Source of the DNA: Ornithinimicrobium cerasi
Lineage (GTDB): Bacteria; Actinomycetota; Actinomycetes; Actinomycetales; Dermatophilaceae
DNA length: 64,000 bases
Reading direction: 5' to 3'
NCBI RefSeq assembly: GCF_003702705.1
Contig: NZ_QZMN01000015.1
Coordinates: forward strand, 1-64,000
Position 1 is the stretch's first letter. Every line of letters starts with the position of its first letter. Below the pieces are notes generated by a model. The model saw only the letters and a program-made list of their open reading frames with translations, did no database searches and had not been told where the DNA came from. The translations under genes were made by a program, and so were the position numbers. Of this stretch, positions 1-43,859 are shown piece by piece.

Positions 1-66
1 GCTGGACGCGGTCGAGGCGGTCTCGAGGTGCTGCTGTACGAGCTCTGTCAGTGACTCTTTGGGCAT
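1..66 (-). CDS. 5' end of an unidentified gene (partial)
   Basis: The first 22 codons of a gene that runs off the left edge of the window. It starts at ATG (complement of 64-66) and begins MPKESLTELVQQHLETAST. A good ribosome binding site, AGGAG, lies five bases upstream of the ATG, and this is the main reason for calling it. The visible peptide is polar and helix-like; it is too short to assign a family. It lies at the left end of the low-GC accessory region. Confidence 0.45.
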   Translation of the reverse strand, partial: MPKESLTELVQQHLETASTASS

Positions 67-355
67 CGGTTCTCCTCATCAGTGAGTGAACACTCTGGAT
101 CACACGCCTGCGGGTCTGGCTGGTGCTGTCTAGGCTAGCCAACAATCCTCACGGACACGTCCGGGTCTGCGCCGCCACCACCCGCCGCATCTGCCTGACC
201 AGCGGACGCACACAACTGCGCATGGAGTGTGCACGCACGCCGGTGCCGCATGAGAACCAGACGCGCGCCTCTGCCGCCCTCCGCACATTGGGCCGGTGAC
301 GAGAAGCTCTTCCAGGAGTACCGTTTGCCTCTCGTCCACGTCGGAAGGTCGCAGG

Positions 356-709
356 GTGAGTCGAAGGTCCGGCAGCGCGGGACGTCGAACCCGGTCGATC
401 GCCTGTGCAATGAGCGCCGTTGCCCTCCTCAGCGGTTGCCAGGTCTCAGCGCCTGTCATCGAGGTATGGGTGGGAACGGATGATCGAGAACTGCAAGTAA
501 CCGTCGATTCGTGCAACCGTGAGCCGGAAGTCACCGTTGTGGAGACGGCCGAGGAGGTACTCCTTCAGGCACGCGTCGACCGCTCCTTCGCGGTGGCGAC
601 CAACGACTGTGCCGACGGCGCAATCGTGATGCTTGAGGAGCCCCTCGGGAAGCGTCCGGTGATGGACGAAAGCACTGGAGCGCAGTTGACCGTTCAGAAG
701 ACCGGCTAA
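356..709 (+). CDS. putative small lipoprotein, no recognised family
   Basis: This 117-residue protein starts at GTG 356, with GGAAGG seven bases upstream; an in-frame start at 296 has no ribosome binding site. The N-terminus is Arg-rich (RRSGSAGRRTR), followed by a hydrophobic stretch and a lipobox, ALLSGC, with the lipid-modified Cys at about residue 28. The mature part is short, acidic and rich in beta-type residues, with two further Cys that could form a disulfide outside the cell. The likely location is the outer face of the membrane. I recognise no family. A second lipoprotein of the same build lies at 2452. Confidence 0.6.
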   Translation: MSRRSGSAGRRTRSIACAMSAVALLSGCQVSAPVIEVWVGTDDRELQVTVDSCNREPEVTVVETAEEVLLQARVDRSFAVATNDCADGAIVMLEEPLGKRPVMDESTGAQLTVQKTG

Positions 710-895
710 CGCTTGCCAGGGCCAGTCCACCTGGTAGGCAGCGCAAAGCCGCGAGAAGCACCCGCCCGGGACCCTTACTCTCATGCCGCTGTGATCGCGT
801 AGCATCCGACCATACCGCCGGTCGCTCGTGCCGAAGTGCGGGTGACGCTGACTACTGGTACGCGATCACCTGGGGCAGCCTTGTCCGTTTCGGTT

Positions 896-1345
896 TCACT
901 CGCACTGGTCGCATGCTCCCGTGGCAGGGAGTTCGACGAAGTGAACCGGGCAGGTCTTGACGCTGGCAGGCGCAGCACGGTCGGTGGCAGACCGAGCCCT
1001 TGGCGCTCGACTCTGTTGCGGTGCGGTGGAGAACTCGATGATGACGTACTGGTCGTACTCGCCACGACTTCCCGGGAAAGCACGAGCCGTCAGGTCAGGA
1101 GGCAGGTCGACGTCGCGGTCAACAGCGAGGTGATGCAGATGGAGGTAGAGGGGGACACGTGAGGTGCCTGCGGCAGGCTTGAGTGCCCAGTAGCTCTGCC
1201 TACGATACGCGTGATCGACGCGTTCCGACACAGCATCCAAAACCCGCCGCAACGTCTCACGGTCCACATCTGTCCATTGGGGATTGCGTGCCAGAAACTC
1301 GGAACGCGTGATGCGCTCGGGACCGCTTCCACTCCAGTCCTTCAT
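896..1345 (-). CDS. hypothetical protein with C-terminal zinc-knuckle-like tail
   Basis: A 149-residue protein starting MKDWSGSGPERITRSEF. Residues 1-60 are charged and helical (RNPQWTDVDRETLRRVLDAV), followed by a hydrophobic His-rich strand (LYLHLHHLAV). The last 20 residues hold a CPVHF...CDQC motif that resembles the Cys/His tails common on small actinobacterial proteins and may bind zinc. No enzyme motif is visible. It is transcribed in the same direction as the DUF4145 gene at 1504-2190, about 160 bases apart. The function is unknown; that it is a real gene is supported by length, the motif and the lack of a better frame. Confidence 0.6.
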   Translation of the reverse strand: MKDWSGSGPERITRSEFLARNPQWTDVDRETLRRVLDAVSERVDHAYRRQSYWALKPAAGTSRVPLYLHLHHLAVDRDVDLPPDLTARAFPGSRGEYDQYVIIEFSTAPQQSRAPRARSATDRAAPASVKTCPVHFVELPATGACDQCE

Positions 1346-1503
1346 CTTGCCTACCCTACGATGGGGGCATTGGACTGTTCGAATCAGCCCGTGACTCCCT
1401 GCTCCAGCACCTCTGTGAACGCACCTAATTGCCGCAGGTAGGGACCGAACGGTCGGAGCTGAGAGAGCGCCCGAACGCGTGGAGGCCGACCCTCCACAAG
1501 CGG

Positions 1504-2190
1504 CTAGGCTGTCGCCGAGTCGCGCCTGGCCTTCCGCGCGGCCCGCATCGCCCGCTTCTCCTCGGGCTGAACATAGAGGACGAGCACTGCCTCTTCAATC
1601 AGTCTCGCAACGTCTTCCACCTCATCTGCCGAATAGATGATGCCGGCATGAATGCTGTCGTTCCCGAGCATCCTCGCCTCGTGGAGATCCTGAATCAAAT
1701 CGACGGGCAACTGACCCTGGAGGCTGTCGATCTTTGTGTAGAGGTCACGACCAGTGGCGTTTTGGTCCTTCACCAGCTCCTCGACGGTCGCGCGATACAT
1801 TACGCCGGCCGCGCGGAACGCCGTGGCCCTCTCACAGATGCTCGCCTCGGCGAACAGGCTCCGCACCCCTGCAGGTGCTGCTTCGTGCAGCGTCCGCGGA
1901 GACTCGGACGGTGAGACCAGCGTGCGCCAAGTCTGAACTTCCTCCTCCCCGCCAGCCTCATCCGGGGGTAGTCTGGCCTCGGTTTCCAAAACGATCACTG
2001 ACTTCTTGCAGTGCAGGCACTCCAAGATCATGACGCCGGTGTGCACCGGGTCGTTGGGGAACTCTCGACTCGTCGCCGAGCCCATGTGCGAGTAGAAGTG
2101 CGGTGAGGCGTAGTTGAGCGAATGGACAACTTTGAAAGAGCTGTCCCGCTTGTGCCAGGGACAGAATCCCACCCCATCCTTGAATAACAT
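1504..2190 (-). CDS. DUF4145 domain-containing protein
   Basis: A 228-residue protein. The N-terminus has a CPWH (residues 10-13) and a later CLHC pair that could form a zinc site. The C-terminal half matches the DUF4145 pattern: a helix ERATAFRAAGVMYRATVEEL, then a KI..L helix, and the family hallmark of a Gly-Asn followed by His (LGNDSIHAG), ending in a long helix before EEKRAMRAARKARR. DUF4145 proteins often occur next to restriction or other defence genes, and the domain is believed to act in nucleic-acid related conflict, but no activity is established. The neighbours here are equally accessory. It could be an orphan part of a degraded defence system. Confidence 0.75.
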   Translation of the reverse strand: MLFKDGVGFCPWHKRDSSFKVVHSLNYASPHFYSHMGSATSREFPNDPVHTGVMILECLHCKKSVIVLETEARLPPDEAGGEEEVQTWRTLVSPSESPRTLHEAAPAGVRSLFAEASICERATAFRAAGVMYRATVEELVKDQNATGRDLYTKIDSLQGQLPVDLIQDLHEARMLGNDSIHAGIIYSADEVEDVARLIEEAVLVLYVQPEEKRAMRAARKARRDSATA

Positions 2191-2451
2191 GCGTGTACCC
2201 CTTACGTCCGATCATCTGTTGGCCATGATGATCATCGCAGAGCATGCCGACTTCCCGGTGAGTGGCGGTGACCCGAGGAGTGGCCTGCTGCGATCCCCTG
2301 CTGGGCAGGGCACTCATCTGCCGCCGGTCGGTCGTCCGGCCCAAGCAGCGTTCGAAAGCGATGCGCAGCACGGTCCCGGCGGCGCATCCCGCGAGCGTGC
2401 CACACTTCTACTGACGCCGTGGGTCAGGCTCGGCCGATGGAGGTTTCGCCG

Positions 2452-2808
2452 GTGACCAAGAGTATATTCAGTGCAATCTCTGCATCGGGGCTAGCCGCCC
2501 TCTTTTTGACGGGGTGTCAGACCGACGGTGAGGATCCCCTCGTCGAGGCGGGGCGCGTCGCTCTCGACGATGCAAGGATTCCCGACGGCTGGCTTCAGGG
2601 CACGACGCTGAGCGTGACGTCCGATGCAGATGCTTTTCGAGTGGTCTACACGCTTGCTCAGCCACGTGAGCATCTCGAGTGGCCGGAGGCGACCTGCGCC
2701 ATTGAGCACGGGGAGACCATCACGGCCATCGAGTGGCTCATTTCAAGGGAGAACGAGATCGAGGCTATGTCGCCCGTGTGGGATGAGGTCTCATGCCTCT
2801 CTGGGTGA
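2452..2808 (+). CDS. putative small lipoprotein, no recognised family
   Basis: A 118-residue protein. The start is set at GTG 2452 because GGAGG lies eight bases upstream; an in-frame start at 2419 would place eleven extra residues before a perfect signal. The signal reads VTKSIFSAISASGLAALFLTGC, with the lipobox Cys at residue 22. The mature domain holds two more Cys (near ATCAIEH and at the VSCLSG end) and an aromatic-rich core. It is predicted to be anchored outside the membrane. I do not recognise the family. Its build is like that of the lipoprotein at 356-709, but the sequences are not obviously alike. Confidence 0.65.
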   Translation: MTKSIFSAISASGLAALFLTGCQTDGEDPLVEAGRVALDDARIPDGWLQGTTLSVTSDADAFRVVYTLAQPREHLEWPEATCAIEHGETITAIEWLISRENEIEAMSPVWDEVSCLSG

Positions 2809-2959
2809 CTCGGCGGGCGGGTCTCTGACAGTTCGCGGACGGGCGCGACCCCCTCGTTCTTGCGCGCTGTGGAGTGCGCGCTTCTGCCGCATGTACTCAA
2901 TCCGGCTCAAGCCTGCCAACGTGCGCCGCGCGAGGGCGCCCCGATCGCGGCATGTTGCG

Positions 2960-3613
2960 TTACGGGAGTCCGATCATGGCTTTCCAACGCACGGCGTGCT
3001 CGCCGTGAGGGTCGATCATCCCGTCGGTGGGGTTGCTGAAGATGTGCCACTGGCAGAACTCGGGGCCGGGCTGGCCAAGCGGGCTCCAACGCTCGAGCAG
3101 GTCGGTCAGACTGGAGGCCATGCGGTAGCCGTTCCCGGCGTCGGTGAGCCCGTGAGCCTCTAGGTAGATGACTTCACCGGCCCGCTCGGGGTGCAGATCG
3201 ACGGCCAGGTAGTCACCGTTTCCTACCGCGCAGATGGGCAGCGTCTCGCGCCAGGGCTGACCGGCTGCGTCCCCCGGGTCGGGAAAGATGATGTCGACGG
3301 CCTGCTGCCTGTGCTCGTTGAGCAGGGGTAGGTGATCCAGCCGGAACCACGTCGAGCCGCAGAAGATGTCGTCGAATGGGGCGGGGAGGTCCGCCCCGTC
3401 GGGCACCCACCAGGACCACTCGACCTGTCGTGTGATGGTCAGGAACGCCGTCCGCAGGCTGTCCGGCAGCGTGAATCCCAGCTGCAATTCGACCGCTGCC
3501 ACCTCCGTCTCGGTCGCCGGCGCATGCACTTTCTTGTCCTTAACGTCCAACCCAAACCGCTCAAGTGGCGCAGCACACCCATCGAGTTGACGAACCAGCT
3601 CCCCATGATCCAT
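2960..3613 (-). CDS. SMI1/KNR4 (SUKH) family protein
   Basis: A 217-residue protein. After a short N-terminus comes the SUKH core: an ATETEVAAVELQLGFTLP segment (family pattern: acidic helix then LP), a helix DSLRTAFLTITR, then the WSWW and PFDDI strands, and the late pattern ICAVGNGDYLAVDLHP followed by VIYL. SUKH proteins are best known as immunity proteins of polymorphic toxin systems in bacteria, and also occur alone. No toxin gene is seen next to it, so it is either an orphan immunity gene or a cargo gene of the island. Confidence 0.75.
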   Translation of the reverse strand: MDHGELVRQLDGCAAPLERFGLDVKDKKVHAPATETEVAAVELQLGFTLPDSLRTAFLTITRQVEWSWWVPDGADLPAPFDDIFCGSTWFRLDHLPLLNEHRQQAVDIIFPDPGDAAGQPWRETLPICAVGNGDYLAVDLHPERAGEVIYLEAHGLTDAGNGYRMASSLTDLLERWSPLGQPGPEFCQWHIFSNPTDGMIDPHGEHAVRWKAMIGLP

Positions 3614-3732
3614 GGACGCACGCTACTGCCGGGGCGAGTGCGCCTGTGCGGCGGCATGGGGCCGCGGTACCCCATGAGGTGGCCGTGGGCGGACTGCTGC
3701 CACGTCGACGTCTTTCCTTCTACTGTGGGGTC

Positions 3733-4203
3733 ATGCTCGAGCTCAGCCAGCTTGACTTGGACGAGATCGCCACGGCTCTGTCCGACCAGACCGACTACGA
3801 CCACCGGTGGCTGATCGACCCAAAGTCGGGGCAGGTGGCTTTCTGGACCTCGGACACTGGCCTGGACGGGGAAAACCCCGTGGACTTTGAGGACCTGGAT
3901 CTCACGCCCATCGATCCGCTCCCGTCGCACGTCTGGTATCAAGACATGGCCGACTTCGCGGACCGGATCAGCGATGATGCTGCGGGACGCCGACTAGCAC
4001 GAGCCATTGCAGGCAAGGGCGCCTTCCGGCGGTTCAAGAACGCGTTGTACGAGGAGCTTCCCCAGCTCCTACCGGCCTGGCACGCCTTCCGAGAAGCCCG
4101 CGCCAACAGGCGAGCCGTCGAATGGCTCGCGGATGAAAGTCTCATCCCAGAGGAAGACGCCGACCAGTATCGAGAGAACCACCCCGACCCCGACGTGCCC
4201 TAA
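3733..4203 (+). CDS. UPF0158 family protein
   Basis: A 156-residue acidic protein starting at ATG 3733 (MLELSQLDLDEIATALSD), with a GGGG just upstream. Family features seen: a helix followed by a WLIDPKSGQV strand, the IDPLPSHVWYQDMADF segment, the AIAGKGAFRRFKNAL helix with its conserved GAFRRF core, and the WLADESLI C-terminus. UPF0158 proteins are widespread and of unknown function, often found with phage or island genes. It is divergent to the SMI1/KNR4 gene across a 119-base gap. Confidence 0.8.
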   Translation: MLELSQLDLDEIATALSDQTDYDHRWLIDPKSGQVAFWTSDTGLDGENPVDFEDLDLTPIDPLPSHVWYQDMADFADRISDDAAGRRLARAIAGKGAFRRFKNALYEELPQLLPAWHAFREARANRRAVEWLADESLIPEEDADQYRENHPDPDVP

Positions 4204-4462
4204 CCACGGAGTCACTCAGCGCCCTTCGGGGGGCGCACTCATTTGCCGCGTGGAGGACGGCTGCGCTCGTCCGACTTTGCCGCCGATCGAGTGGCCGGTT
4301 CGGCACCGTGTCTGCGCCGGCCCTGTGCGTCAGGATGGGGTGAGACGCCAGCCCTGCTGACGTTCGCACTGCACGAGGCGAGATCGGACCACTACTGAGA
4401 TGACGATTAGGACTGCTAACGTCGGCGCCGATGATGGGGTCATGTTCCCTTGCGCTGATTAG

Positions 4463-4720
4463 CCGAAGCGGCGCAAGTTCACCGCGGAGTTCAAGGCGGC
4501 GATCCTCGCCGAGTACGACGCGGCTGAGCGTGGCGTGATCCCGCGCCGGGAGGGCCTGTACACCTGCTGCCACATCATCGAGTGGCGAAAGGCCGCCTCT
4601 GCGGGTGCGCAGGCAGGGTTGGGCGACAAGCCACGAGACCGGCCGGGCGGGGGGATTCAGAACGCACAGCCGAGCGTCTGGCCAAGGGGCAATACGCTGC
4701 GGCGGAGGCGGGTGCCAGCT
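4463..4720 (+). pseudogene. IS3-family transposase OrfA remnant
   Basis: From 4463 the reading is PKRRKFTAEFKAAILAEYDA, followed by REGLY and HIIEWRKA and an Ala/Gly-rich linker, as in the helix-turn-helix half of IS3-type OrfA proteins. There is no usable start codon. Near 4655 (a run of G) the reading moves to another frame, where ERTAERLAKGQYAAAEA continues the expected leucine-zipper region. Frameshift, missing start and no OrfB behind it show that this is a dead fragment. The 258 bases before it, from the UPF0158 stop, hold no gene that I can support. Confidence 0.7.
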
Positions 4721-4906
4721 TTGTGACAGGTCTGCGGGCGTTATTTGCTCACTCGTGCACGGGTCCGCAGCAAAATTGGGCCTGTCCACCGCGAGGCCCT
4801 AGTTCCCACCAGCGCCGTGACCTGCGCTGTTCAGGTTGCGTCCTGGTATCGCCCGGGAGGCGCCTTGCTCCAGAACGATCACGGCGAAGTCGCTGTCCTC
4901 CTCCAC

Positions 4907-5116
4907 CGGGGCAACACGAGCACGTGTGGCGGCGCCGCGGACGTCCTGGCCTACTTCGGTCGGACGCACACTAGCAACGGACCGACCGGGGCCGTGAATG
5001 GTCGGCTCGAGCACCGGCGCGGCCCCGAGGTCAGGTTCCGCAATCCCATCAACATCGTCGCCCCAGCCCTGCTCGAAGCCGGCGGATTCGGACCAGAGCT
5101 ACGCCCTGAATTGTAA
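4907..5116 (+). pseudogene. ISL3-family transposase C-terminal remnant
   Basis: The last about 60 residues of an ISL3-type transposase: ADVLAYF, then TSNGPTGAVNGRLEH (ISL3 consensus SNGPTEAxNxRLE/IK), RFRNPINIVAPALLEAGGF and a stop after ELRPEL. Several consensus positions are altered (the E of SNGPTEA is G, and GFRN is RFRN). The rest of the transposase is absent; the DNA upstream in this frame has no similarity that I recognise. It is therefore a decayed insertion-sequence end. The following 265 bases (5117-5381) hold no gene that I can support. Confidence 0.65.
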
Positions 5117-5381
5117 GGAGCCCCTTCACCGCGTCCGCTACCGCTCGGTCGCGGACAACGGCGCCACCGACGCCGCACCAGCACTACGTGATGGGCAGCG
5201 CCCTGACGCACGCACATCCGAAGGACGCGGGACGGACCGCGCTCTCGCCTCGTGGGAAGGGACGCGTCGTCCACAACCCGCCAGTCTCGGCACGGCATCG
5301 TCGCGATCACGACCGAGTGAACGCAGTGACAACGCGACCACGCATCCGTAGAATGGCGGAAGAACCGACCGAGGGGTAGAC

Positions 5382-5771
5382 ATGCTGAACTTACCGGGTC
5401 CCGAACGGGCCAAGGCGCTTGACCCGTTTGGCAGGATCGACCTAGCCGACGTGGTGGCCTACCTGCGCACGGAACTTAGCGATGCGTCGACCTTGTCTGA
5501 AGACGAGCATGTGCAGTTCGAGTTGGGTCCTATCGAGCTCACCTTGGCAGTCCAAGTCACCAAGGAAGCTACTGCTGGAACCGAGGTTGGAGGAAAAATA
5601 CGATTCTGGGTTCTCGACGCGGATGCCAAGGCGTCAGCGTCGGCGTCCGCCTCATCACAGACGACCCAAACCATCAAGCTCACGCTGTCCCCCGTCGATC
5701 TGAGGAACCCGAATCGCGACCCCGCTACCCCGGTTCGGATAAGGGGGCGACAGGCTCTGGGGGAAGCGTAG
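5382..5771 (+). CDS. Trypco2-like (trypsin-co-occurring domain) protein
   Basis: A 129-residue protein with GAGGGG upstream of ATG 5382. The layout fits the trypsin-co-occurring domain 2 family: a helix DLADVVAYLRTEL, then alternating strands VQFELGPIELTLAVQV and GGKIRFWVL, a low-complexity Ala/Ser linker (ASASASASS) and a final strand TIKLTLSPVD. In actinobacteria such small domains are encoded next to trypsin-like proteases and STAND NTPases, in predicted NTP-dependent conflict systems described by computational work from the Aravind group. Here the next gene, 76 bases downstream on the same strand, encodes just such a protease-NTPase. The inferred role is regulator, adaptor or target-presenting partner. 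No experimental function is known to me. Confidence 0.75.
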   Translation: MLNLPGPERAKALDPFGRIDLADVVAYLRTELSDASTLSEDEHVQFELGPIELTLAVQVTKEATAGTEVGGKIRFWVLDADAKASASASASSQTTQTIKLTLSPVDLRNPNRDPATPVRIRGRQALGEA

Positions 5772-5847
5772 GAACCATGTCTCTTGCGCACACGCTACAT
5801 AGACTTGCTTTCCCACGCAGGAGTCTACGCCTCAGTTGGAGGCCGCA

Positions 5848-8800
5848 ATGAGTGAGGGATTGCAGGCGGAACGGGTGACTCAAATACTGGCGGAGACAGA
5901 GGAAGGACACTTCCGTGGTTCTGGCTACTTGATTAGCCAAAACCTTGTTCTCACCAGCGGACATGTTATTGCCGGCGCGAAGAGTATCAATGTTGTTGTG
6001 TTCTCCCCCGAACACAGGGAGGAAGTCATACCGGCCCTTTCGTGGCTTCTTTCTGATGAGGACGTCCCGCACTTCGGTCTAGTTATACTGCCGCACGTCA
6101 ACGTCTCAAACGATGAGAACCCGCCATTCGGCAGACTGAAGCGGCGAGCCGCAGTACTGACCGCGGAGACCTTGGGCTTTCCATTATACAAGCTTCGCCC
6201 CATCGCGGGCAATGACAGCAATGACGAAACGGGGTCTAGCCGGGTACTGGTAAGAGACTCCCTGCATGTGCCACAAGGAAAAATTGCGCTCCTTAGCAAC
6301 TTGCGCAACGGCACACTTGCCCTGAGTACAGGCGAGGAACCTACTTGGAGCGAGGGGGCCGACAACCCGTGGGAGGGTATGTCTGGTGCGCCCGTGTTCA
6401 TTGCTGAACACATCATAGGTCTTATTGACTGTAGATACCCGGGTGAATCGCCAGGTACACTAACAGTTCGCCCCATCGAAGACCTCAAGTCAATGCCCAG
6501 CCACAATCTTGAGTTCAGTACCATGCTTGGTCTTCCTGCGGATTTGGACAGCCTCCCCGATATGACTCAAGGCAGCAGCAGGACGAGTGCTGTCCTTGCA
6601 GCCTACGCGCGTGACGTTAGAGCGATCGCACCAGAAACTCTTTTTGGACGCAGCTCTGAACTTGCGGACCTCGTCTCTTTCATCGCAAGCCACGAACAAT
6701 ATCTGTGGTGGCAGGCGGGGCCCTGGGCAGGGAAGACAGCATTCTCTGCAACCATCGCTTTCGATCCGCCGGGCGGCGTCGAAGTCGCCTCATTCTTTAT
6801 AACGGCCCGACTTCCGAGCCAGTCGAACTCAGCCGCGTTCCTGCTTGCGATGATCGACCAGTTGGCTGGCATTGCGGATGAGGCCAGAGTTACTTTGGAT
6901 TCCCGACCTGGTCAAAGAGGACGCTATTTCGCCTTAATTGAGGCGGCAGGAAAAGCGGCCGCAGCAAGACGGCATCGGCTCCTCTTGGTTGTTGACGGCC
7001 TGGATGAGGATCAAGGTACGGGTCAGGAGAGCATAGCCTCGCTGATACCGGAAGTCCTGCCGGACAACGTCAAGGTTCTTGTTACTAGCAGAGCAAACCC
7101 GGGGCTCCCCCAGGACGTTGGCGCGAAGCACCCTTTGAGAGACTGCCTCTCGCCCTCCTGGCCCGAATCTGAGTATGCCGCTGAGGTTCGAGATCGAGCG
7201 GACGCGGAACTGGGAAGAATTCTCAAGTACGCGGAACCAACAGAGATCGCCATTCTTCAGGCAGTAACAGTATCCGGCGGCGGCCTGTCTGTTCATGACA
7301 TCTGTGCAATCACCAAGATGCCGCGGTGGGTGATTCGCGACTGCCTCACACAGTCATTCGCACGCTGTCTACGATCTCGCTCGCCGGTTCATTCGCCGGC
7401 CACCGGACCAGTCTTCCTCTTTGCGCACGATAAACTCAGGGAAGCGGCGGAGGAAGCCTTGAGCGACGACCTAGAAGACGTTCGTTGCAACTTGATCTCG
7501 TGGGCAGACGGGTACCGCGATGATCGCTGGCCGATGGATACTCCCGAGTACCTTCTGCGATCATATCCTCGAGTGCTGGGAACGCACCTTCGAAAGAACG
7601 ATACCGTTTCCATCGTTATCGACTTAGCGCGACACGAGCGCATAGTCTCGCGGACGGGGTCGGGGCTCTTATCGATGTCCGAATTGGCCGAGGCAGCAAG
7701 ACTGCTAAAGTCAGACCATTCCACAGAGTCCGTGGCCGCTCAACTCGCCGCAGTCGGAATGGAGGATTTCGTGCGACAGTCCGACATCCCCGACATGCTG
7801 GTTGACGTGATAAAGGTTCACGCACTGCTGGGGGAGTTTGGACCGGCGGAGGGGAGGGTTTATTACCTTGGGACGATGTTGGAGCGCCTAGACGGCATGC
7901 TCGCCATTGCCGAAGCGGCAGCCGAGAACTCGGTCGTCTGGGCAAGGGAGTTGGCCCGAGACGCGTCTACCCTCATGCACACTGTGCCAGACGGGACGAC
8001 GCGAAATCTGCTCCTACATCGTTTTGCGGTTCTGCACGCGCGCCTGGGGGAGGTCGAGCTGGCTAAGAGACGGATCCTCGAACTTTCCTCTCCCGAGCTG
8101 AGAGCCCGATGCGCGGTCGAATGCGCAGCTGGGAGTCATAGGCTGCCAAGCGATACCGTAGCGGACCTAAAGTCGGAGATTCTTTCCGAGCTTTCCGCCC
8201 GCAGCAGTGTCGAGCTTGGTGCAGCCTCACTGGATGCCTTTGGGGTCGACTTCATCAAGGCCGCCGGAGTAGAAGTTGCCACTCTTGGACGACGGATTGT
8301 CCAGTCACTACCGCACCCGCAGGCTGTCATGGCTCTCTCCCGCGCAACGCCTGTGTTCGTCGCTAACGGGAAGGCTTCCATTATTGAGGAGGGAGTGTCC
8401 ATCTTGGGAACTTCGCGAGCAGCCGCCAGCGCAGCAATTGGACTAACTGCCGCGTATTGGGCCGCGGGGGATCAGGAGCAAGGCCTGAAGTGGAGGAGGG
8501 ACGCGGAAGCGCTGCTGCGCAAAGAATCATCCGTGGTGCCCAGGTTTCGACTGCTCGGAGAACTGTCGGTCGTAGACGCTACGTGGCCTGCATTTTCTGC
8601 GGACGTCTCTCAAGGGTTACGACGGCACATCCTTTGGCTGCAAGATCGGCTCGGAGAGGATCGACCGGATGTCAGCGCGATGCTTGCGCTAGCGGAGACC
8701 GAAGGGACGACATTCAGGGATCACGCCAGCGAACTCGTTAGCAGGGCTGAATCCATTCTGCGGAAACGAAACAGGTCGCCCCACGTAAGCCGCGCTCACG

Positions 8801-9837
8801 CTGCTCTCTTGACAGCTTTCCTGTCAAATGGGGACACTGCTCAGGGAGTGCGGGCCGCTTGGGCTGCACCTGTCAATGACCGCGACCGCCTGTTAGAGCG
8901 GGTCTTTCGTTGGTCCGTGGACCATGACGACCTTGATAGCGCACTCCGCGCCTTGCCCAGAATGTCGTCAGGAGTGAGAATCGTTGAGGTTCTGGCGCCC
9001 GCTTTGGAGTCACTGCTGGATCAAAGGAAGTGGAGTTTTGTCCTCAGTTTGCTTGCGGAGGTTCAACGCATCAATCTGCCCCTTGAGGATACACTGGTCA
9101 TTGAATTGTTCAACAATGCCATTGCGGATGATAGGACGGACGTGGCCACTGCAGCGGTCGCGTTGCGCGCGCAACGAGCGGCGGAATTTACTGACTTGCT
9201 GTTCATTGCTGACATGGTCACCGTGCGCGGTCACAGGGAGGACGTGTTGGCCATCGGTAGTCGACTGCGGGAGCTCACGAGGCACGGCCATGGCGGGGTT
9301 GGAGGGCTGGAAGGGCTTATTCGATTCGCAGCCCAGAGCAAGCAGCAGTTCTTACTACGGGGTCCGGACGATCCTGCTCTGGAGTCCCTAGTGACGTCGA
9401 TGTTCGAAGTTGCCCTGCCGTTGGTCCCCGGCAAGGACGGCACCCAACGTGGTGACCATCTTGGAGGTCTCTTGAATAAGATTGCAGGCGACTTTCCAGG
9501 GCTCGATCTCTCTGAGGAACTGAACGTAGCGGCAAGCAGAATCGGTTGGAATCCCCGACTTCCGGGCTCGCTTTGGGCCCCCGGGCAGCCACGCCTAGCC
9601 GGCGCACTACCGGGAGATGAGGTGCAACGGATCGGCGCCGCACCCCAAAGGGCCGGGGGTGGGATCGCCCCCCCTCGCCCCCCTCTATACGACCCAGAAG
9701 TTGGGGACCACATTGAGGACCAAGGCACGGCAACTGCACAGGCACTCGAGATCTCAAGGGAACGCCCCGAGCTCTTGTCCCGAGTACTTCTCGTGTTGGA
9801 GGGACAAGCCATCGATTGGAACCTCGGGGGCTCCTAG
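5848..9837 (+). CDS. trypsin-like protease fused to NACHT/STAND NTPase with helical C-terminus
   Basis: A 1,329-residue protein. The start is set at ATG 5848, with GGAGG five bases upstream; TTG 5836 lies inside that site. Residues 20-215 form a trypsin-like fold: GSGYLIS, the catalytic His39 in LTSGHV, and Ser179 in WEGMSGAPVF. The Asp position is unclear (DVPHFGLVIL in place of the usual D-L-A-L). Residues 263-520 form a NACHT/STAND-type P-loop NTPase with FGRSSEL, Walker A AGPWAGKT (290-297), Walker B LLLVVDGLDED (378-388) and sensor VLVTSR. Residues from about 560 to the end are helical, probably an alpha-solenoid that senses a trigger. No signal peptide or membrane segment is seen, so it is cytoplasmic. 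The likely mode is NTP-dependent oligomerisation that activates the protease. Codon use is clearly less GC-rich than in genes right of 11 kb, which suggests transfer. Confidence 0.85.
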   Translation: MSEGLQAERVTQILAETEEGHFRGSGYLISQNLVLTSGHVIAGAKSINVVVFSPEHREEVIPALSWLLSDEDVPHFGLVILPHVNVSNDENPPFGRLKRRAAVLTAETLGFPLYKLRPIAGNDSNDETGSSRVLVRDSLHVPQGKIALLSNLRNGTLALSTGEEPTWSEGADNPWEGMSGAPVFIAEHIIGLIDCRYPGESPGTLTVRPIEDLKSMPSHNLEFSTMLGLPADLDSLPDMTQGSSRTSAVLAAYARDVRAIAPETLFGRSSELADLVSFIASHEQYLWWQAGPWAGKTAFSATIAFDPPGGVEVASFFITARLPSQSNSAAFLLAMIDQLAGIADEARVTLDSRPGQRGRYFALIEAAGKAAAARRHRLLLVVDGLDEDQGTGQESIASLIPEVLPDNVKVLVTSRANPGLPQDVGAKHPLRDCLSPSWPESEYAAEVRDRADAELGRILKYAEPTEIAILQAVTVSGGGLSVHDICAITKMPRWVIRDCLTQSFARCLRSRSPVHSPATGPVFLFAHDKLREAAEEALSDDLEDVRCNLISWADGYRDDRWPMDTPEYLLRSYPRVLGTHLRKNDTVSIVIDLARHERIVSRTGSGLLSMSELAEAARLLKSDHSTESVAAQLAAVGMEDFVRQSDIPDMLVDVIKVHALLGEFGPAEGRVYYLGTMLERLDGMLAIAEAAAENSVVWARELARDASTLMHTVPDGTTRNLLLHRFAVLHARLGEVELAKRRILELSSPELRARCAVECAAGSHRLPSDTVADLKSEILSELSARSSVELGAASLDAFGVDFIKAAGVEVATLGRRIVQSLPHPQAVMALSRATPVFVANGKASIIEEGVSILGTSRAAASAAIGLTAAYWAAGDQEQGLKWRRDAEALLRKESSVVPRFRLLGELSVVDATWPAFSADVSQGLRRHILWLQDRLGEDRPDVSAMLALAETEGTTFRDHASELVSRAESILRKRNRSPHVSRAHAALLTAFLSNGDTAQGVRAAWAAPVNDRDRLLERVFRWSVDHDDLDSALRALPRMSSGVRIVEVLAPALESLLDQRKWSFVLSLLAEVQRINLPLEDTLVIELFNNAIADDRTDVATAAVALRAQRAAEFTDLLFIADMVTVRGHREDVLAIGSRLRELTRHGHGGVGGLEGLIRFAAQSKQQFLLRGPDDPALESLVTSMFEVALPLVPGKDGTQRGDHLGGLLNKIAGDFPGLDLSEELNVAASRIGWNPRLPGSLWAPGQPRLAGALPGDEVQRIGAAPQRAGGGIAPPRPPLYDPEVGDHIEDQGTATAQALEISRERPELLSRVLLVLEGQAIDWNLGGS

Positions 9838-9980
9838 TGGATCGGCCAGGGCCATTCTTGCATCACTTCGGTACCAGTCTTAGGTCGGTGCGCGGGATGA
9901 AGGGCACTTGACCCCAGTGGTCGGGACTGCTGCACGGGTAGGTGACATCTGTGACGGCTTCGAGGTGTCGCTGGAAGGGA

Positions 9981-10165
9981 TGTGACCCGCTCCTCCGCGA
10001 GCTGGCCGGCGACGGGGGCCCCGTCACGGTGACGTGCCGGGTGCTGAGGATCGCTCGCCAGTCCTACTACCGGTGGCTGGCCAACCCGGTCACCGAGGCC
10101 GAGCTGGTGGCCGCCTACCGCCCGACGCCCTGTTCGACGCGCACCAGGACGACCCAGAGTTCGCT
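9981..10165 (+). pseudogene. IS3-family transposase OrfB remnant
   Basis: The reading PLLRELAGDGGPVTVTCRVL, then SYYRWLANPVTEAEL, matches the N-terminus of IS3-type OrfB. At about 10123 the frame breaks: the next frame gives ALFDAHQDDPEF, the segment that normally leads into the DDE core. After that the similarity is lost. The DDE catalytic domain is missing, so it is a dead fragment. I see no gene in the rest of the 9838-10379 interval. Confidence 0.65.
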
Positions 10166-10379
10166 TCGAATCGCGCCAGCACGCATCCGCATTTCTCTGG
10201 TGGGCCAAGGACAAGTCGTAGCCCGACGCTACTGGCGGCAGCGCCGAACGTCCGCGCAGGCGGCCGTGATGCTCACTCTCATGCCGCAGGTCGCTCGCGT
10301 CAATTGGGTGTGATGATTCGCGGAACCTTCCCACCTGGACGTCACGGGACTGCTCACCCGGCGCTGGGGGCAGGACAGT

Positions 10380-10625
10380 TCAGGCGGTATCGAGGTAGCT
10401 CGAGAGCGCTTCGCGGACGACGGCGTCGGGCGACTGCCCATCTTTGGCGGCTCGCTCGTCGATGGCGTCCAGCAGATCCTCGGGCACCAGCTGAACCCGA
10501 TGGAAGTGCGGATTCGGCTCGGAGGGGCGGGTCTTCAGGTCGTGGCCGGCCTCCGCTTCCTGGACCAGGTCGGCGACCTGCGCATCCGTGAGTCCGGGCA
10601 CGCTGTCAGTGATCTCATAACTCAT
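10380..10625 (-). CDS. ribbon-helix-helix type antitoxin
   Basis: An 81-residue protein with a strong AGGAGG site before ATG 10625. The N-terminal part (GLTDAQVADLVQEAEAGHDL) is helical. The C-terminal part (HFHRVQLVPEDLLDAIDERA, then DAVVREALSSYL) is the strand-helix-helix of CopG/RHH proteins, here placed at the C-terminus. It overlaps the upstream gene by 11 bases. The pair fits a toxin-antitoxin module in which the antitoxin binds its own promoter and neutralises the toxin. The arrangement is known for this family; activity here is inferred. Confidence 0.7.
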   Translation of the reverse strand: MSYEITDSVPGLTDAQVADLVQEAEAGHDLKTRPSEPNPHFHRVQLVPEDLLDAIDERAAKDGQSPDAVVREALSSYLDTA

Positions 10626-10866
10626 GCGTGTGCCCTCCTTTCGGGTAGTACCGCTTGCGCAACTTCATCGCGTGGATGACAACCTCGGCACCATCATCCC
10701 CTGCCACCGTGACGATCTCCAGTGGTCTGGCCGATCCGTCCACACCGACGTAGAGCCACCTGTCCGGGTCTTCGCCGACCTGAGTGCGTTGCCAGGCAGT
10801 GGCGACGGCGAGCGCGATGTCCGACGGCGTGCATCCGTGCTTCAGCGCCGATCGGAGGATCCTCAC
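10615..10866 (-). CDS. putative toxin of a toxin-antitoxin pair
   Basis: An 83-residue protein if started at GTG 10866 (VRILRSALKHGC); the frame stays open to a possible start at 10992, and neither start has a clear ribosome binding site. The shorter form is chosen because members of this family begin at the S-A-L-K-H-G segment. Other features: the WLYVGVDGSARPLEIV strand pair and the C-terminal VIHAMKLRKRYY, typical of small basic toxins paired with RHH antitoxins. The antitoxin's ribosome binding site lies inside the toxin's last codons, so the two are translationally coupled, with the toxin gene first. The molecular target cannot be told. Confidence 0.6.
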   Translation of the reverse strand: MRILRSALKHGCTPSDIALAVATAWQRTQVGEDPDRWLYVGVDGSARPLEIVTVAGDDGAEVVIHAMKLRKRYYPKGGHTHEL

Positions 10867-11119
10867 GAGATTGAGTCTGGCAGGAGCCACCGACACGGAC
10901 GCACGCGCCCAACGGCAGCTCGGATCCTTCGCGCTTCCACTCTCGGCGCCTTTGACAAGGCTGTAGCCAGCCGCGCGAATCTCCAGCGCCATGTGGTCGC
11001 TGGCGTAGGCCGTCAGTAGGCCGTCACAGGTTCAGAACATCGTCTCTCTGCTGCGCTAGCTAACGACGTTTGTGCAGGTCAGCACCCTACAGGTGTCGAC
11101 CACCTACCCCCTGGACGCC

Positions 11120-11163
11120 CTTTTAATCCGTAGGTTGTGGGTTCGAGTCCCACGGGGCCCACC
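11120..11163 (+). other. 3' part of a tRNA-Lys(UUU) gene, putative attachment site
   Basis: The segment reads as the anticodon loop CTTTTAA (anticodon TTT), the 3' anticodon stem, the variable loop, a perfect T-arm (GTGGG TTCGAGT CCCAC) and the acceptor strand GGGCCCA followed by CC. The D-arm and 5' acceptor strand are absent upstream: the bases before 11120 do not pair. This is the classic scar left where an integrating element used the 3' end of a tRNA gene as its attachment site. The complete tRNA would then lie at the other end of the element, left of this window. It marks the change from low-GC accessory genes to high-GC genes. Confidence 0.7.
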
Positions 11164-11237
11164 TCAGCGTCTTTGCAGGTCAGGTCATCTGTGGCCCCTA
11201 CCGGGTGGGCCCGTCACGAGGATGGGCACGCGGGCAG

Positions 11238-12653: not shown

Positions 12654-13694
12654 TCAGAGGGTGACGACGACCTTCCCTCGGGTGTGGCCAGCCCCGACGT
12701 AGCGGAGGGCGTCGGCTGCCTCGTCGAGGGGGTAGGTGCGGTCGATGACCGGCGTGACCTGCCCGGTCGCAAGGAGGTCGGCCAGGGTGAGCAGGTCCTG
12801 GTGCTTCTCGACCGACGTGAAGGGCCTCAACCGCTGACGGGTGAACCAAGACAGCACACGCGCCTTGACGATCCGACCGAGAGGGCCGAGCCAGCGACCG
12901 CCGTGTCCGCTGTTGGGGATCAGGGTGCCGGCGGGCGTCAGCGCTCGGCGGACAGCCGCCAGGGGCTGGGCCTCCACGTTGTCGAGGATGACGTCGTAAC
13001 GCTTCTCGGTGCCGGTGAAGTCAGTCCTCGTGTAGTCGACGACATGGTCGGCCCCGAGGGACCGGACCAGGTCGGCGTTGCGGGTGCTGCACACACCCGT
13101 CACCTCGGTGCCGAACGCCTTGGCGATCTGTACGGCGAAGGAACCGACCCCGCCCGATGCGCCTGTGACCAGCACCGTCTGTCCTGGCCGAACGCTCGCG
13201 ACGTCGCGCAGGGCCTGCAACGCCGTCATGGCCGACGTGGGCACGGCTGCTGCTTCCAGGACCGACAGGCTGGAAGGCACGGGCACGAGGTGATCCGCCG
13301 GGACGCAGGCATACTCCGCGAGCGTCCCAGCGGTGCTCCAGCCGAACACCTTCTCACCGAGTCGGAGAGCGGTGACGTCCTCCCCGACCGCTGCCACCAC
13401 GCCCGCGAGGTCCCGGCCGGGGATGCCGTGGCGGGGCCGGCGCAGCCCGAACACCAGGCGCAGCACGTACGGCTTGCCGGTCATCACGAAGTAGTCGCCG
13501 GGATGGACCGAGGCCGCGCCCACCCGGACGAGCACATCGCCTGGGCCGGGTATCGGTAGCGCGACCTCGGACGGCTCGAGCACGGAGGGTGGGCCGTAGC
13601 GGTGCTGGACGGCGGCCCGCATCGTCGTCGCCCGGGCCGGACTCGTCCCCGGCACCCCGTGTGCCGTGGCACTCGATGGCTGTTCGGCTTCCAC
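12654..13694 (-). CDS. MDR-family NAD(P)-dependent oxidoreductase (quinone reductase/alcohol dehydrogenase type)
   Basis: A 346-residue protein. GTG 13694 is chosen because GAGGAG lies six bases upstream; the frame is open further but would run through the operator. The zinc-type MDR fold is present: catalytic GroES-like part (GDVLVRVGAASVHPGDYF, GRDLAGVVAAVG), then the Rossmann part with the nucleotide loop VTGASGGVGSFAVQIAK. The catalytic zinc ligands of true alcohol dehydrogenases are not evident, so an NADPH quinone reductase or enone reductase is more likely. It is the first gene of the minus-strand unit, divergent to tetR, and probably induced when the TetR repressor binds a small electrophile or drug. 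Confidence 0.85.
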   Translation of the reverse strand: MEAEQPSSATAHGVPGTSPARATTMRAAVQHRYGPPSVLEPSEVALPIPGPGDVLVRVGAASVHPGDYFVMTGKPYVLRLVFGLRRPRHGIPGRDLAGVVAAVGEDVTALRLGEKVFGWSTAGTLAEYACVPADHLVPVPSSLSVLEAAAVPTSAMTALQALRDVASVRPGQTVLVTGASGGVGSFAVQIAKAFGTEVTGVCSTRNADLVRSLGADHVVDYTRTDFTGTEKRYDVILDNVEAQPLAAVRRALTPAGTLIPNSGHGGRWLGPLGRIVKARVLSWFTRQRLRPFTSVEKHQDLLTLADLLATGQVTPVIDRTYPLDEAADALRYVGAGHTRGKVVVTL

Positions 13695-13728
13695 AGAAAG
13701 CTCCTCACGTGCTGGATAGGTCAAGTTC

Positions 13729-13780
13729 GTACATCGTACGAAGTCAGTCGTACGATGTACTGTCGACGTACACCGTACGA
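13729..13780. promoter_or_regulatory. TetR operator: 13-bp inverted repeat plus a third half-site
   Basis: Positions 13729-13741 (GTACATCGTACGA) and 13748-13760 (TCGTACGATGTAC) form a perfect 13-base inverted repeat with a 6-base spacer. A third copy, 13768-13780 (GTACACCGTACGA), repeats the left arm with one mismatch. All lie in the gap between the oxidoreductase start (13694) and the tetR start (13815), so a bound repressor could control both promoters. It is the natural operator for the neighbouring TetR protein. Confidence 0.85.
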
Positions 13781-13814
13781 TTGTCAAGGACCACTCAAGC
13801 TGGTGAGGAGATCT

Positions 13815-37103: not shown

Positions 37104-40853
<3,750 letters not shown>

Positions 40854-40900
40854 CTCCCCACTCTAGGTGCCGTGGGGTCAGGCGCCCAATCAGCGACCGC

Positions 40901-41098
40901 TCACCGCATCTTGCTCTGCTCCCAGCGCTCGGGCAGGTTGTTCCACCCGCAGACCGGGCAGATCATGAACTCGGGGTGCTCGTGGCGCGGGGGCTCGTCC
41001 GCCAGGGCGGCACGGGCCTTGTCGATGACCGCGCGCAGCAGGCTCGGCTTGCGGCAGGTCGGGCACTCGGTGGTCTCGGTGGTGTCGTGGTCTCCCAT
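40901..41098 (-). CDS. small zinc-ribbon-like protein
   Basis: A 65-residue protein starting at ATG 41098. Two CxxC pairs, ECPTC (Cys12, Cys15) and ICPVCGW (Cys47, Cys50), are split by a helical, charged segment (LLRAVIDKARAALAD), giving a likely Zn4-Cys site. There is no clear ribosome binding site. It lies 47 bases upstream of metH on the same strand and could be cotranscribed. The function is unknown. Confidence 0.6.
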   Translation of the reverse strand: MGDHDTTETTECPTCRKPSLLRAVIDKARAALADEPPRHEHPEFMICPVCGWNNLPERWEQSKMR

Positions 41099-41150
41099 GG
41101 GACGAGAGTGGCAGGCCCGGACCGTCCTGACAACGGTCGAGGCCGGGCGG

Positions 41151-41660
41151 TCAGCGGATCTGGCCGCGGACCTCACCGCCGGGGAAGTCCCCGGGACCGG
41201 TGTTCGTCTCGCCCGTGCCGTCGTTGGTGTGGACGTTGACGTAGGCGTCGCCCGCCTCGAACGCGGTGATGAGGTCCTCCATCGACATCCCGGCCAGCGG
41301 GCCGATGAGGTCGTCCTCGGTGATGGTGCCGGTGGCGAGCACGCCGTTCGTCGCCCCGCCGCCGAGGGGGAGCGGGCCGGCCAGGAAGGCCACCACCGGT
41401 CCGTTCGTGCCGGCCTCACCCAGGTGGATGTGCGCCGCGACGACGTTGTCGATGTTGGCGACGATCAACCGGTAGTCCAGCTCCGTCCGGTCGCCGGACA
41501 GCTTGAGCACCGTCGTGCCCCGCGCCCTCGTCTCCCTCTCCGGCACCTCGTTCGCGCTGCTGAGCCGGGCGGTGTAGGTGTCGGTCGCCTGGGCGGGTCC
41601 GACGAGCCCGAGGCTCACCAGGACCACCACCGGGGCCAGCACGAGACGGTTCGTCCTCAC
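41151..41660 (-). CDS. secreted CHRD-domain protein
   Basis: A 169-residue protein; GTG 41660 has AGGAGG five bases upstream. The signal peptide (VRTNRLVLAPVVVLVSLGLVG, cut near AQA) is followed by the CHRD fold: YTARLSSANEVPERET, TELDYRLIVANIDNVVAAHIHLGEAGTNGP, then AYVNVHTNDGTGETNTGPGDFPGGEVRGQI, the closing CHRD signature. It is exported; in bacteria such domains are thought to be structural or adhesive. It is divergent to the metalloprotease gene. Confidence 0.88.
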   Translation of the reverse strand: MRTNRLVLAPVVVLVSLGLVGPAQATDTYTARLSSANEVPERETRARGTTVLKLSGDRTELDYRLIVANIDNVVAAHIHLGEAGTNGPVVAFLAGPLPLGGGATNGVLATGTITEDDLIGPLAGMSMEDLITAFEAGDAYVNVHTNDGTGETNTGPGDFPGGEVRGQIR

Positions 41661-41825
41661 CGCATCCTCCTGGGCTTCGTCGCCGGGCCGGGCGGGGCGC
41701 TCGGCCCTCGGTTCATGGTCGACCGCCCGGGGGCAGGTGTCAACGCCGTCCGAGTGTCCCGTGTATCTGCCGGCCGGTGCCCGCCTCCGAGCAGGTGCAG
41801 GACCCGACCGAGAAGAGGAACCGTC

Positions 41826-43859
41826 ATGGGTGCAGCACCGACACGCCGCAGGATGTCGTCCGTCCGGAGGGCCGAGCACGACCTGGCCCTCGCGATCGAG
41901 GCGGCGTCGGCCGACGAGTCGTCCCCACCGGTCGACAGCGACGACGACGCCAGGGTGTCCGCAGCCGTCGACGCCATCCTGGCGAGGGCGGGGGGAACGG
42001 AGATGGACGAGGCGGGGGCGGACTCCGGTGTCCTCACGCCGCGTCCTCCGGCTCGCGTCGTGGTCCGGCTGGACGCCCTCGAGGTCACCCAGGAGGTCCA
42101 GGACCTGCCGCACTCGGTGCCGCTGGTCGCGGGCAAGTCGACCATCGTGCGGGCCTACCTGAGCAGGCCGGGCACCGCCGTCACCGTCCGGGGGGAGCTG
42201 CGGGTCGCGCGCTCGGTCCGGGGGCCGTGGCGCAGCGTGCCCTCGCTCGGCACCGCCCAGCTCTCACCGTCCCGCCAGGGGACGACGCCGGAGGACCTCC
42301 GCTCGCGCCGGGCCGACCTGCGCTACAGCCTCAACTTCCGCCTTCCCGCCGACCTGGTGGCCGACCCCGGCACCCTGTGGCTGCGGCTGGGGACGCTGCG
42401 CCGCTCCCGCGGGGTCGGCGCCGTCCCCTCGGTGGCCCACGTCCGGCGGCACCGCCGCACGCTCAGCCCAGGCGTCCCGCTGCGGCTGCGCCTCGTGCTC
42501 CTCCCCTACACCTCCGGCGGCACGACCCACACCCCCACGGCCACGGACGTCGACCACCTCCGGTCCTACCTCCGCCGCGCCTACCCGGTGAGCGAGGTGC
42601 TGATGACGACCCGGACGGTCCCGGCCTCCAGCCCGGCCCCCTTCACGGCTGCGCAGGTCAACGCCCAGCTGGCCGCGATCCGCGCGGTGGACGTCGCCAC
42701 CGGCACGGACGCCCGGACCCACTACTACGGGATGGTCTCGTCCGGCGGGTTCTTCATGAGGGGCCAGGCGTCCGGCATACCGGGCACGCCCCAGCCCGCC
42801 ACGGTCGCCTCCGGGCCCACCGGCAGCTCGGGGTTCGCCTGGGACACCGACGGGTCGTGGGGCGACTGGTACGGCGCGCACGAGCTCGGGCACACGCTGG
42901 GCCGTCTGCACGCGATGTTCTGCGGTGCGGGCGGCGGCGGTCCCTACCCGTTCGCGAACGGCCAGCTCTCCGACGCGGACCAGGCGTTCGTCGGGATCGA
43001 CGACGGCGAGACCGCGCTCGGGCTGCCGACCAGGGTGTGGCAGCCGATCACCTCGCACGACGTCATGACCTACTGCGACGACCAGTGGCTCAGCTCGTTC
43101 ACCTACCAGGGCATCTACGACCGCCTGGTCGCCGAGAACGCCCTCGCCTCCGGCGCCGTTCCGGGCGCGGGGGCCGGCGCCGACGGGGGAGGATGGGGTA
43201 TGCGTCTGTTCGCCTCGCTCAACCTGGACCGTGCCGAGGGGTCGATCGCCGCGGTGCTGCCGACCGAGCTGGTCGGGGAGGCAGCCGTCGACAGCGCCGC
43301 GGACGAACGGGACGCCCGGGACGACCGTGGGGACGGGGCGGGGCGGACGGCCACGGTGGTCAGCCAGGTCCTGGATGCCGACGGGACGGTGCTGGACGAG
43401 CGTCCGGTCCCCTTCGTCCTGAGCAGCTGCGAAGACCCCGACGAGGACGTGACCGCCACCGTCGACGCGGTGCTGCCGGACCGGGAGGGCGCGGCCGTGG
43501 TCCGCCTGCTCGTGAACGGCACCGTGGTGGCCGAGCACCAGGTCGGCGGCCGGGCCGTGGCGCCCTCGCTGCCGGACACCCAGACCGACACCGGGGGAGA
43601 CGGGCCGGGCGGGGACGGGCCGGACGTCCTCCACCTCGAGTGGGCGGCCCCGGGCGCGTCGGGCTCGCAGCGGTACGTCGTGCAGGTGAGCAGCGGTCCC
43701 GACGGCGAGGTCTGGGAGACCGTCGCGGTCGACCTCGCGGAGCCGGTGCTGGACCTGCCCGGTGACCAGTTCGAGACGGAGACCGTCCGGGTCCGCGTGC
43801 TCGCCACCACCGGCACGGGCACGGTGGAGGTCCAGGACGTGCAGGTCCAGCTCCGCTGA
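41826..43859 (+). CDS. metzincin-type zinc metalloprotease
   Basis: A 677-residue protein; ATG 41826 has AGAGGA upstream. Residues 1-75 are charged and low complexity. Then comes a beta-rich domain, followed by the catalytic part with HELGHTLGRLH (HExxHxxGxxH zinc site, near residue 355) and a Met-turn SHDVMTYC. The C-terminal third contains two beta-sandwich-like regions (one ending RAVAPSLPDT, then a Gly/Asp linker and a fibronectin-like end). No signal peptide can be seen, which is odd for such a protease. It may leave by another route or act inside. Confidence 0.82.
   Translation: MGAAPTRRRMSSVRRAEHDLALAIEAASADESSPPVDSDDDARVSAAVDAILARAGGTEMDEAGADSGVLTPRPPARVVVRLDALEVTQEVQDLPHSVPLVAGKSTIVRAYLSRPGTAVTVRGELRVARSVRGPWRSVPSLGTAQLSPSRQGTTPEDLRSRRADLRYSLNFRLPADLVADPGTLWLRLGTLRRSRGVGAVPSVAHVRRHRRTLSPGVPLRLRLVLLPYTSGGTTHTPTATDVDHLRSYLRRAYPVSEVLMTTRTVPASSPAPFTAAQVNAQLAAIRAVDVATGTDARTHYYGMVSSGGFFMRGQASGIPGTPQPATVASGPTGSSGFAWDTDGSWGDWYGAHELGHTLGRLHAMFCGAGGGGPYPFANGQLSDADQAFVGIDDGETALGLPTRVWQPITSHDVMTYCDDQWLSSFTYQGIYDRLVAENALASGAVPGAGAGADGGGWGMRLFASLNLDRAEGSIAAVLPTELVGEAAVDSAADERDARDDRGDGAGRTATVVSQVLDADGTVLDERPVPFVLSSCEDPDEDVTATVDAVLPDREGAAVVRLLVNGTVVAEHQVGGRAVAPSLPDTQTDTGGDGPGGDGPDVLHLEWAAPGASGSQRYVVQVSSGPDGEVWETVAVDLAEPVLDLPGDQFETETVRVRVLATTGTGTVEVQDVQVQLR

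Follow-up and report, generated by a model that had tools for sequence, protein, structure and literature searches.

A Trypco2 gene paired with a trypsin-STAND gene on a presumed integrative element of Ornithinimicrobium cerasi: a candidate intracellular surveillance module

In a window of 64,000 nucleotides from Ornithinimicrobium cerasi (contig NZ_QZMN01000015.1, positions 1 to 64,000), two adjacent genes encode a small Trypco2 protein and a large protein with a trypsin-like head on a STAND ATPase. We found that the pairing of Trypco2 with trypsin is real and that Trypco2 goes with the trypsin head, not with the STAND chassis to which the head is fused. We give an even chance to the reading that the two genes form an NLR-like intracellular surveillance module on an integrative mobile element, in which sensing of an invader would lead to oligomerisation and activation of the protease. 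That Trypco2 may serve as a dedicated regulator that binds the trypsin head falls just short of even probability, and roles as substrate or adaptor share most of the remainder.

The two open reading frames (ORFs) had been predicted in an initial annotation made from the window alone, and their coordinates and sizes proved right (Table 1). Both lie on the + strand with 76 bp between them. The larger has 1329 residues when read from the ATG at 5848, which is preceded by GGAGG (by eye), and 1333 residues when read from an alternative mechanical start, TTG at 5836. The smaller is a Trypco2 protein as proposed: it matches Pfam family PF19631 with 76 bits against a cut-off of 24.2 (E 2.7e-21), and R29 and L102 are invariant across it and 55 aligned relatives. 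The larger protein had been described as a STAND NTPase with Walker A and B motifs behind the His and Ser of a trypsin-like site, and all of these parts were found. In the profile search suggested at the time, Pfam NPHP3_N matched over its cut-off (E 9.6e-10), NACHT just under it (E 5.4e-5) and trypsin weakly and likewise under cut-off (E 5.5e-4), and the PADLOC model STAND_TPR (PDLC01173) matched residues 256-713, which correspond to model positions 92-522 of 1114, with an E value of 9.8e-66. The Walker A (GPWAGKT) and Walker B (VVDGLDED) motifs are both in place, and the window protein shares G295, K296, D383, D386 and E387 with all of 39 relatives. The head scores 147 bits against a profile of the heads of 39 relatives from which the window was left out; its closest solved sequences are HtrA2 and glutamyl endopeptidases, and His39 and Ser179 (GMSGA) are in place. 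Behind the ATPase core follow about 700 residues with a median pairwise identity of 0.24, compared with 0.47 for the core (38 systems). No Pfam repeat was found in this C-terminal region, and no Pfam TPR or helix-turn-helix (HTH) match is listed for the large ORF.

A survey of neighbours had also been suggested, with lack of conserved pairing named as what would speak against the prediction; the pair turned out to be conserved. A protein search of plasmid records returned 22 records, in four of which (three Streptomyces, one Rhodococcus) the match covers trypsin and STAND, and a gene annotated as a trypco2 family protein lies immediately upstream in all four. A first, non-exhaustive sample was then obtained by scanning a genome collection through peptide patterns from a five-sequence alignment; the best 80 of 153 stretches were kept, all with record titles from actinobacteria, and scanned with our own Trypco2, trypsin and STAND profiles. 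Among the 41 trypsin-STAND ORFs in these stretches, Trypco2 lies upstream at 36, downstream at three and is missing at two. The upstream cases comprise 35 in which Trypco2 has a separate frame and one (L100) in which a broken copy has its pieces in one frame; the downstream cases are all from Pseudonocardia, with Trypco2 0.3 to 1.6 kb away, and may belong to the following gene. Trypco2 was found at 0 of 18 loci where the chassis lacks trypsin, four of them rechecked with small ORFs (Fisher, trypsin against no trypsin, 3e-13, with relatedness ignored). A further 23 trypsin ORFs had no STAND_TPR match; here Trypco2 lies upstream at 18, on the opposite strand at one and is missing at four.

The same picture emerged from a set of 394 genomes belonging to the class, among them that of the window; this sample is not independent, since it overlaps the first (L105/G303, L081/G397). 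Trypco2 is present in 40 of these genomes. When trypsins of conflict type were defined by a score above 50 bits, a line placed at the gap above the HtrA-like scores of about 35-48 bits, 53 were obtained, and at 43 of them, the window pair included, Trypco2 lies upstream within 600 bp. The other ten comprise two at contig ends, one with Trypco1 and seven with nothing found; the case with Trypco1 fits the mutual exclusivity of Trypco1 and Trypco2 published in 2020 (PMC7159879). Conversely, 13 of 56 Trypco2 hits have no conflict-type trypsin downstream, several of these being fragments. Among the 29 best loci of this sample besides the window, Trypco2 accompanies 10 of 10 chassis with trypsin and, within 1.5 kb, 0 of 19 without it. 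No third gene recurs broadly beside the pair: the widest neighbour cluster (blastp, 1e-12) covers 10 of 39 loci, all from Streptomyces, and we read these shared neighbours as marking one fixed chromosomal site. A pattern search of viral contigs for the module gave no match.

We also considered whether Trypco2 is excluded from trypsins fused to EAD2. The four Trypco2-less trypsin ORFs without STAND_TPR are 77-85% identical to each other, and the one scanned with Pfam carries EAD2. The idea was rejected when 23 trypsin-EAD2 loci from 392 genomes of one genus (median identity 0.58) were inspected, as eight of them have Trypco2, six upstream and two nearby on the other strand. At the other seven loci of the same listing, where trypsin sits on longer proteins, Trypco2 is present in all seven. 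For the contrast in Trypco2 between trypsin-STAND and trypsin-EAD2, a Fisher test gave 3e-7 with relatedness ignored.

The heads of the chassis are exchanged. By Pfam, 20 scanned non-trypsin N-termini on the same chassis comprise three caspases, three TIR domains, one HTH and 13 without a recognised domain. A tree of 76 STAND cores, built quickly and with two long branches flagged, requires four changes of the trypsin head, at least three of them forced by well-supported branches. Of the 3 independent pairs, Trypco2 follows trypsin in an average of 2.9 and in no case moves against it. Most simply, trypsin and Trypco2 would form a single cassette.

The island on which the pair had been placed could be traced to its tRNA. 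ARAGORN and Rfam found no intact tRNA in the window, and Rfam at gathering threshold gave nothing, yet the 45 bp at 11120-11164 are identical to the 3' part of the tRNA-Lys(TTT) gene, of which the same genome has an intact copy at G000:C72:7463-7537. The repeat occurs once in the window and in 0 of 100 shuffles. Contig C72 carries, in positions 1-7463, a tyrosine integrase adjoining the tRNA and a TrwC/MobF-type relaxase. We infer that the first 11.16 kb of the window and the first 7.46 kb of C72 are the two arms of one integrated mobile element. A congener (G011) has an intact tRNA-Lys directly beside homologues of a DUF6326 gene and of the gene at 12654-13787 (dehydrogenase-like by eye), the two genes that follow the repeat in the window; in seven other congeners of the eight looked at, the tRNA-Lys was absent from the stretch fetched. 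On the far side of the G011 tRNA-Lys, the DNA shares 76% identity with C72 starting at position 11346, and the gap between tRNA and this stretch measures 3.8 kb in C72 against 0.13 kb in G011, so the C72 flank is not undisturbed either. The 3.8 kb without counterpart in G011 (G000:C72:7538-11345) may stem from another insertion into this tRNA.

From head swapping, family resemblance and island context we infer a role in immunity. In the module as we picture it, the variable C-terminal region would bind an invader-derived protein, binding of ATP would let the STAND cores oligomerise, and the heads thus brought together would be switched on and cleave host or invader proteins, so that infection is stopped or the cell killed. 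Trypco2, as the dedicated regulator, would bind the trypsin head and either keep it latent or license it. There are published precedents: trypsin heads fused to sensors act on oligomerisation in Avs1b, HamA and LmuA (PMC12799240), and a trypsin-like peptidase works with an NLR-like ATPase in LypABC (PMC13236601). The trypsin heads of three relatives that were scanned match the PADLOC profiles LmuA, Avs1b, HamA and RT-Protease; the window's own matches are weaker. These matches and the TIR and caspase heads on the chassis strengthen the immune part of the initial claim of a candidate protease-effector immunity system; the term protease effector is less secure for the window copy, because its catalytic Asp is not recognisable.

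Several observations weigh against the surveillance module or against its proposed wiring. Two of the 41 trypsin-STAND ORFs (L047 and L074, rechecked with ORFs down to 20 residues) are without Trypco2, as are seven of 51 assessable class trypsins, which lack Trypco1 too (Trypco1 was profile-tested at one locus), and 15 of the 23 trypsin-EAD2 loci within about 1.5 kb. The tree offers three independent pairs (p 0.25, not significant), too few for any significance to be reached. In a mirror-tree comparison, Trypco2 distances follow the STAND core (r 0.884, partial r 0.50) slightly better than the trypsin head (r 0.865, partial r 0.37); co-inheritance is therefore silent on the domain touched, and we rejected the comparison as a test of which domain Trypco2 contacts. 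A literature search, with subscription papers and preprints largely outside its scope, found no phage or invader test of the family. The last of these points concerns the window copy itself, in which the third residue of the catalytic triad, the Asp, is not recognisable.

An Asp stands at the triad position in 62 of 64 non-window heads, the remaining two being fragments, and the D-I-A stretch of HtrA2 aligns at the same place. The initial annotation had made no claim about this residue. When the window head is aligned to the relatives' profile, no Asp falls at the triad position, with low confidence. In a five-residue register scan, whose matrix was trained on the relatives themselves, the window head reaches at best -0.7, whereas no relative scores below 6.1. 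Two registers tie at -0.7, the first well upstream, the second at the expected position with Gly77 in the Asp column, and the register of Asp72 scores -3.0. We consider it more likely that the window copy has lost the catalytic Asp than that it has kept it, and since the residue is not recognisable, its protease may be weak or dead.

This bears on a rather unlikely alternative, namely that the window copy is decaying or non-proteolytic, its head a pseudoprotease and the gene a relic or a binding-only sensor. Besides the unrecognisable Asp, the head deviates at three of 17 positions invariant in 39 relatives, and in a leave-one-out control no other of the 40 rows deviates at more than one; the two residues preceding the catalytic His are both off consensus. 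The last 89 residues have no clear counterpart in the relatives' alignment (by eye), and codon-position GC gave no clear break there that would mark the frame end. Of the 59 genomes searched for the module, the window's own included, none of the 58 others has it, and a weak HTH_28 match of transposase-like appearance lies just downstream. The frame is nevertheless open over 1329 codons, Asp72 does pair with the conserved Asp in four MAFFT alignments, at the cost of a gap, the STAND core keeps 21 of 24 positions invariant in 39 relatives with the other three changed from Leu to Ile, and Trypco2 is intact. Intact trypsin-STAND copies are present among the relatives, for example in the pair of Streptomyces fulvoviolaceus (L063).

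It is unlikely that Trypco2 is instead the substrate of the protease and the true effector, cut by the trypsin head after sensing to release a toxic or signalling fragment, in the way Avs1b cuts Avs1a. The gene order is that of Avs1a-Avs1b, and in Hachiman and Avs1 the trypsin heads activate a nuclease encoded just upstream (PMC12799240); the match of the relatives' heads to the PADLOC profiles of proteases of this type speaks for the substrate reading. The lack of another recurring gene beside the pair outside one Streptomyces clade is in line with it, and so is an Ala/Ser-rich loop in the window Trypco2, ahead of a conserved T-Q motif, that is longer than in the relatives shown. On the other hand, Trypco2 has only about 100 residues with no enzyme or membrane family among its Pfam matches, its profile found nothing significant among PDB sequences (best E 0.016, over 27 residues), and it also precedes MoxR-containing operons of ternary type that have other candidate effectors (PMC7159879). 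In a wider form, Trypco2 would be a protease-activated effector in the slot of the pro-nuclease of Avs1, Hachiman and Lamassu, and trypsin plus Trypco2 would be portable across STAND, VMAP and EAD2 chassis; to this we likewise assign a low probability.

Less likely still, finally, is that the module has no role in immunity and instead serves the stability, competition or regulation of mobile elements and linear plasmids: relatives do lie on plasmids, in Rhodococcus with a MobF relaxase directly upstream of trypco2, and the window copy on an element with integrase and MobF-type relaxase, but the TIR and caspase heads of the same chassis are typical of immune or cell-death effectors (PMC7159879) and the ten Streptomyces loci are read as one chromosomal site.

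The surveillance module resembles several known systems in part. The name Trypco2 and the description of its pairing with trypsin go back to work on ternary systems of the VMAP (MoxR-vWA) kind (Kaur et al., 2020, eLife 9:e52696; PMC7159879), and plasmids of Methylosinus and Azospirillum have Trypco2 ahead of trypsin and MoxR genes. The likeness is a Trypco2 gene beside a trypsin-bearing gene; the difference is that the window trypsin forms the head of a STAND ATPase whose Walker motifs are intact and that the relatives have a two-gene unit. The eight island ORFs of the window contig and the four ORFs of C72 that were scanned include neither a MoxR nor a vWA gene. With AVAST type 1 (Avs1a nuclease, Avs1b trypsin-STAND) the module shares a partner immediately upstream of a trypsin-STAND fusion, and the relatives' heads match the Avs1b profile, but here the partner is Trypco2 and not a nuclease of the metallo-beta-lactamase (MBL) fold. 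No recurring third gene like Avs1a appeared in 39 loci by blastp at 1e-12, a search made without a nuclease profile, and the window protein has no full-length match to Avs1b (13.1 bits over 66 residues in PADLOC; 10.1 against a cut-off of 1500 in NCBIfam). The candidate PADLOC system STAND_TPR, placed by its description beside cas1-less type I-E in Streptomyces, has the ATPase chassis in common; its model is described with Xre-HTH and TPR, in place of which the window has a trypsin head and Trypco2. Bacterial CARD-NLR systems (LypABC of Caulobacter; Lysobacter; PMC13236601) likewise combine a trypsin-like peptidase with an NLR-like ATPase ending in a TPR-like region, but in these the peptidase and the Walker-competent ATPase are distinct proteins in contact through a CARD-like domain, a third gene is involved, and the consulted parts of the source describe no Trypco2.

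Annotated plasmid records already name such genes trypco2 family proteins, and a literature search found no tested function for this domain, named since 2020. Neither the two-gene unit of Trypco2 and trypsin-STAND nor the chassis comparison is described in the consulted parts of PMC7159879. In the comparison, Trypco2 accompanies trypsin but none of the caspase, TIR and HTH heads; this narrows the role of Trypco2 to the protease head, and the two-gene unit makes that role testable without the ternary machinery. Should Trypco2 be an inhibitor, it would act inside the cell as the safety catch of a bacterial NLR protease; should it be a substrate, it would represent a new effector class.

Table 1. 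Features of the Trypco2/trypsin-STAND locus and the tRNA repeat of its island (window coordinates)
Feature	Position	Strand	Evidence
Trypco2 protein, 129 aa	5382..5771	+	Pfam PF19631, E 2.7e-21; alignment with 55 relatives
Trypsin-STAND protein, 1329 aa: head, ATPase chassis, variable C-terminus	5848..9837	+	ORF, Pfam, PADLOC, alignment
Trypsin-like head, residues 1-218; His39 at 5962-5964, Ser179 at 6382-6384	5848..6501	+	Profile of relatives' heads
Catalytic Asp region, residues 72-77, no recognisable Asp at the conserved position	6061..6078	+	Comparison with 64 heads
STAND ATPase core (NPHP3_N/NACHT/STAND_TPR), residues 255-615	6610..7692	+	Pfam, PADLOC, alignment
Variable C-terminal region, presumed sensor, residues 616-1240	7693..9567	+	Pairwise identity
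Last 89 residues, Pro/Gly-rich; frame end uncertain	9568..9834	+	Alignment by eye
3' part of tRNA-Lys(TTT), one attachment repeat of the island	11120..11164	+	Exact 45-bp match

Some loci show other layouts. In L137 (G412:C1:379000-385000), one ORF (1589-3958, - strand) has an N-terminal Trypco2 followed by weak trypsin matches to our own profile and by nSTAND_NTPase5; in L136 (G236:C1:2691500-2698500), one ORF (2492-4852, - strand) has an N-terminal Trypco2 followed by about 690 residues without Pfam match. Both are possible natural fusions of Trypco2. One of the Trypco2 hits counted above as lacking a conflict-type trypsin is L134 (G191:C1:420500-428000), where a Trypco2 ORF (4446-4859, - strand) stands directly before a trypsin ORF (2391-4442, - strand) with a weak CHAT match, which may be another chassis for the pair. 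Trypco2 and the trypsin gene lie on opposite strands, an unusual layout, in L190, L193 and L106. Locus L082 of Streptomyces lacrimifluminis has two adjacent STAND_TPR genes (492-4628 and 5809-9204) that are placed apart in the tree.

Of the other defence-like genes claimed for the island, DUF4145, SUKH-1 (SMI1/KNR4) and UPF0158 genes are indeed present (1504-4203), as is a ribbon-helix-helix (RHH/CopG) antitoxin-like gene; as defence genes they are weak. The RHH gene, near the island end, overlaps a 125-residue ORF without Pfam match (10380-10992), possibly as a toxin-antitoxin pair. The frame with the HTH_28 match, which has the look of a transposase remnant, is short and lies directly 3' of the STAND gene at 9942-10313. 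Further along the window, a frame of 2211 codons at 37224-43856 (+ strand) has no Pfam match and may be spurious, as the DNA is GC-rich and a frame of 1249 codons lies opposite part of it.

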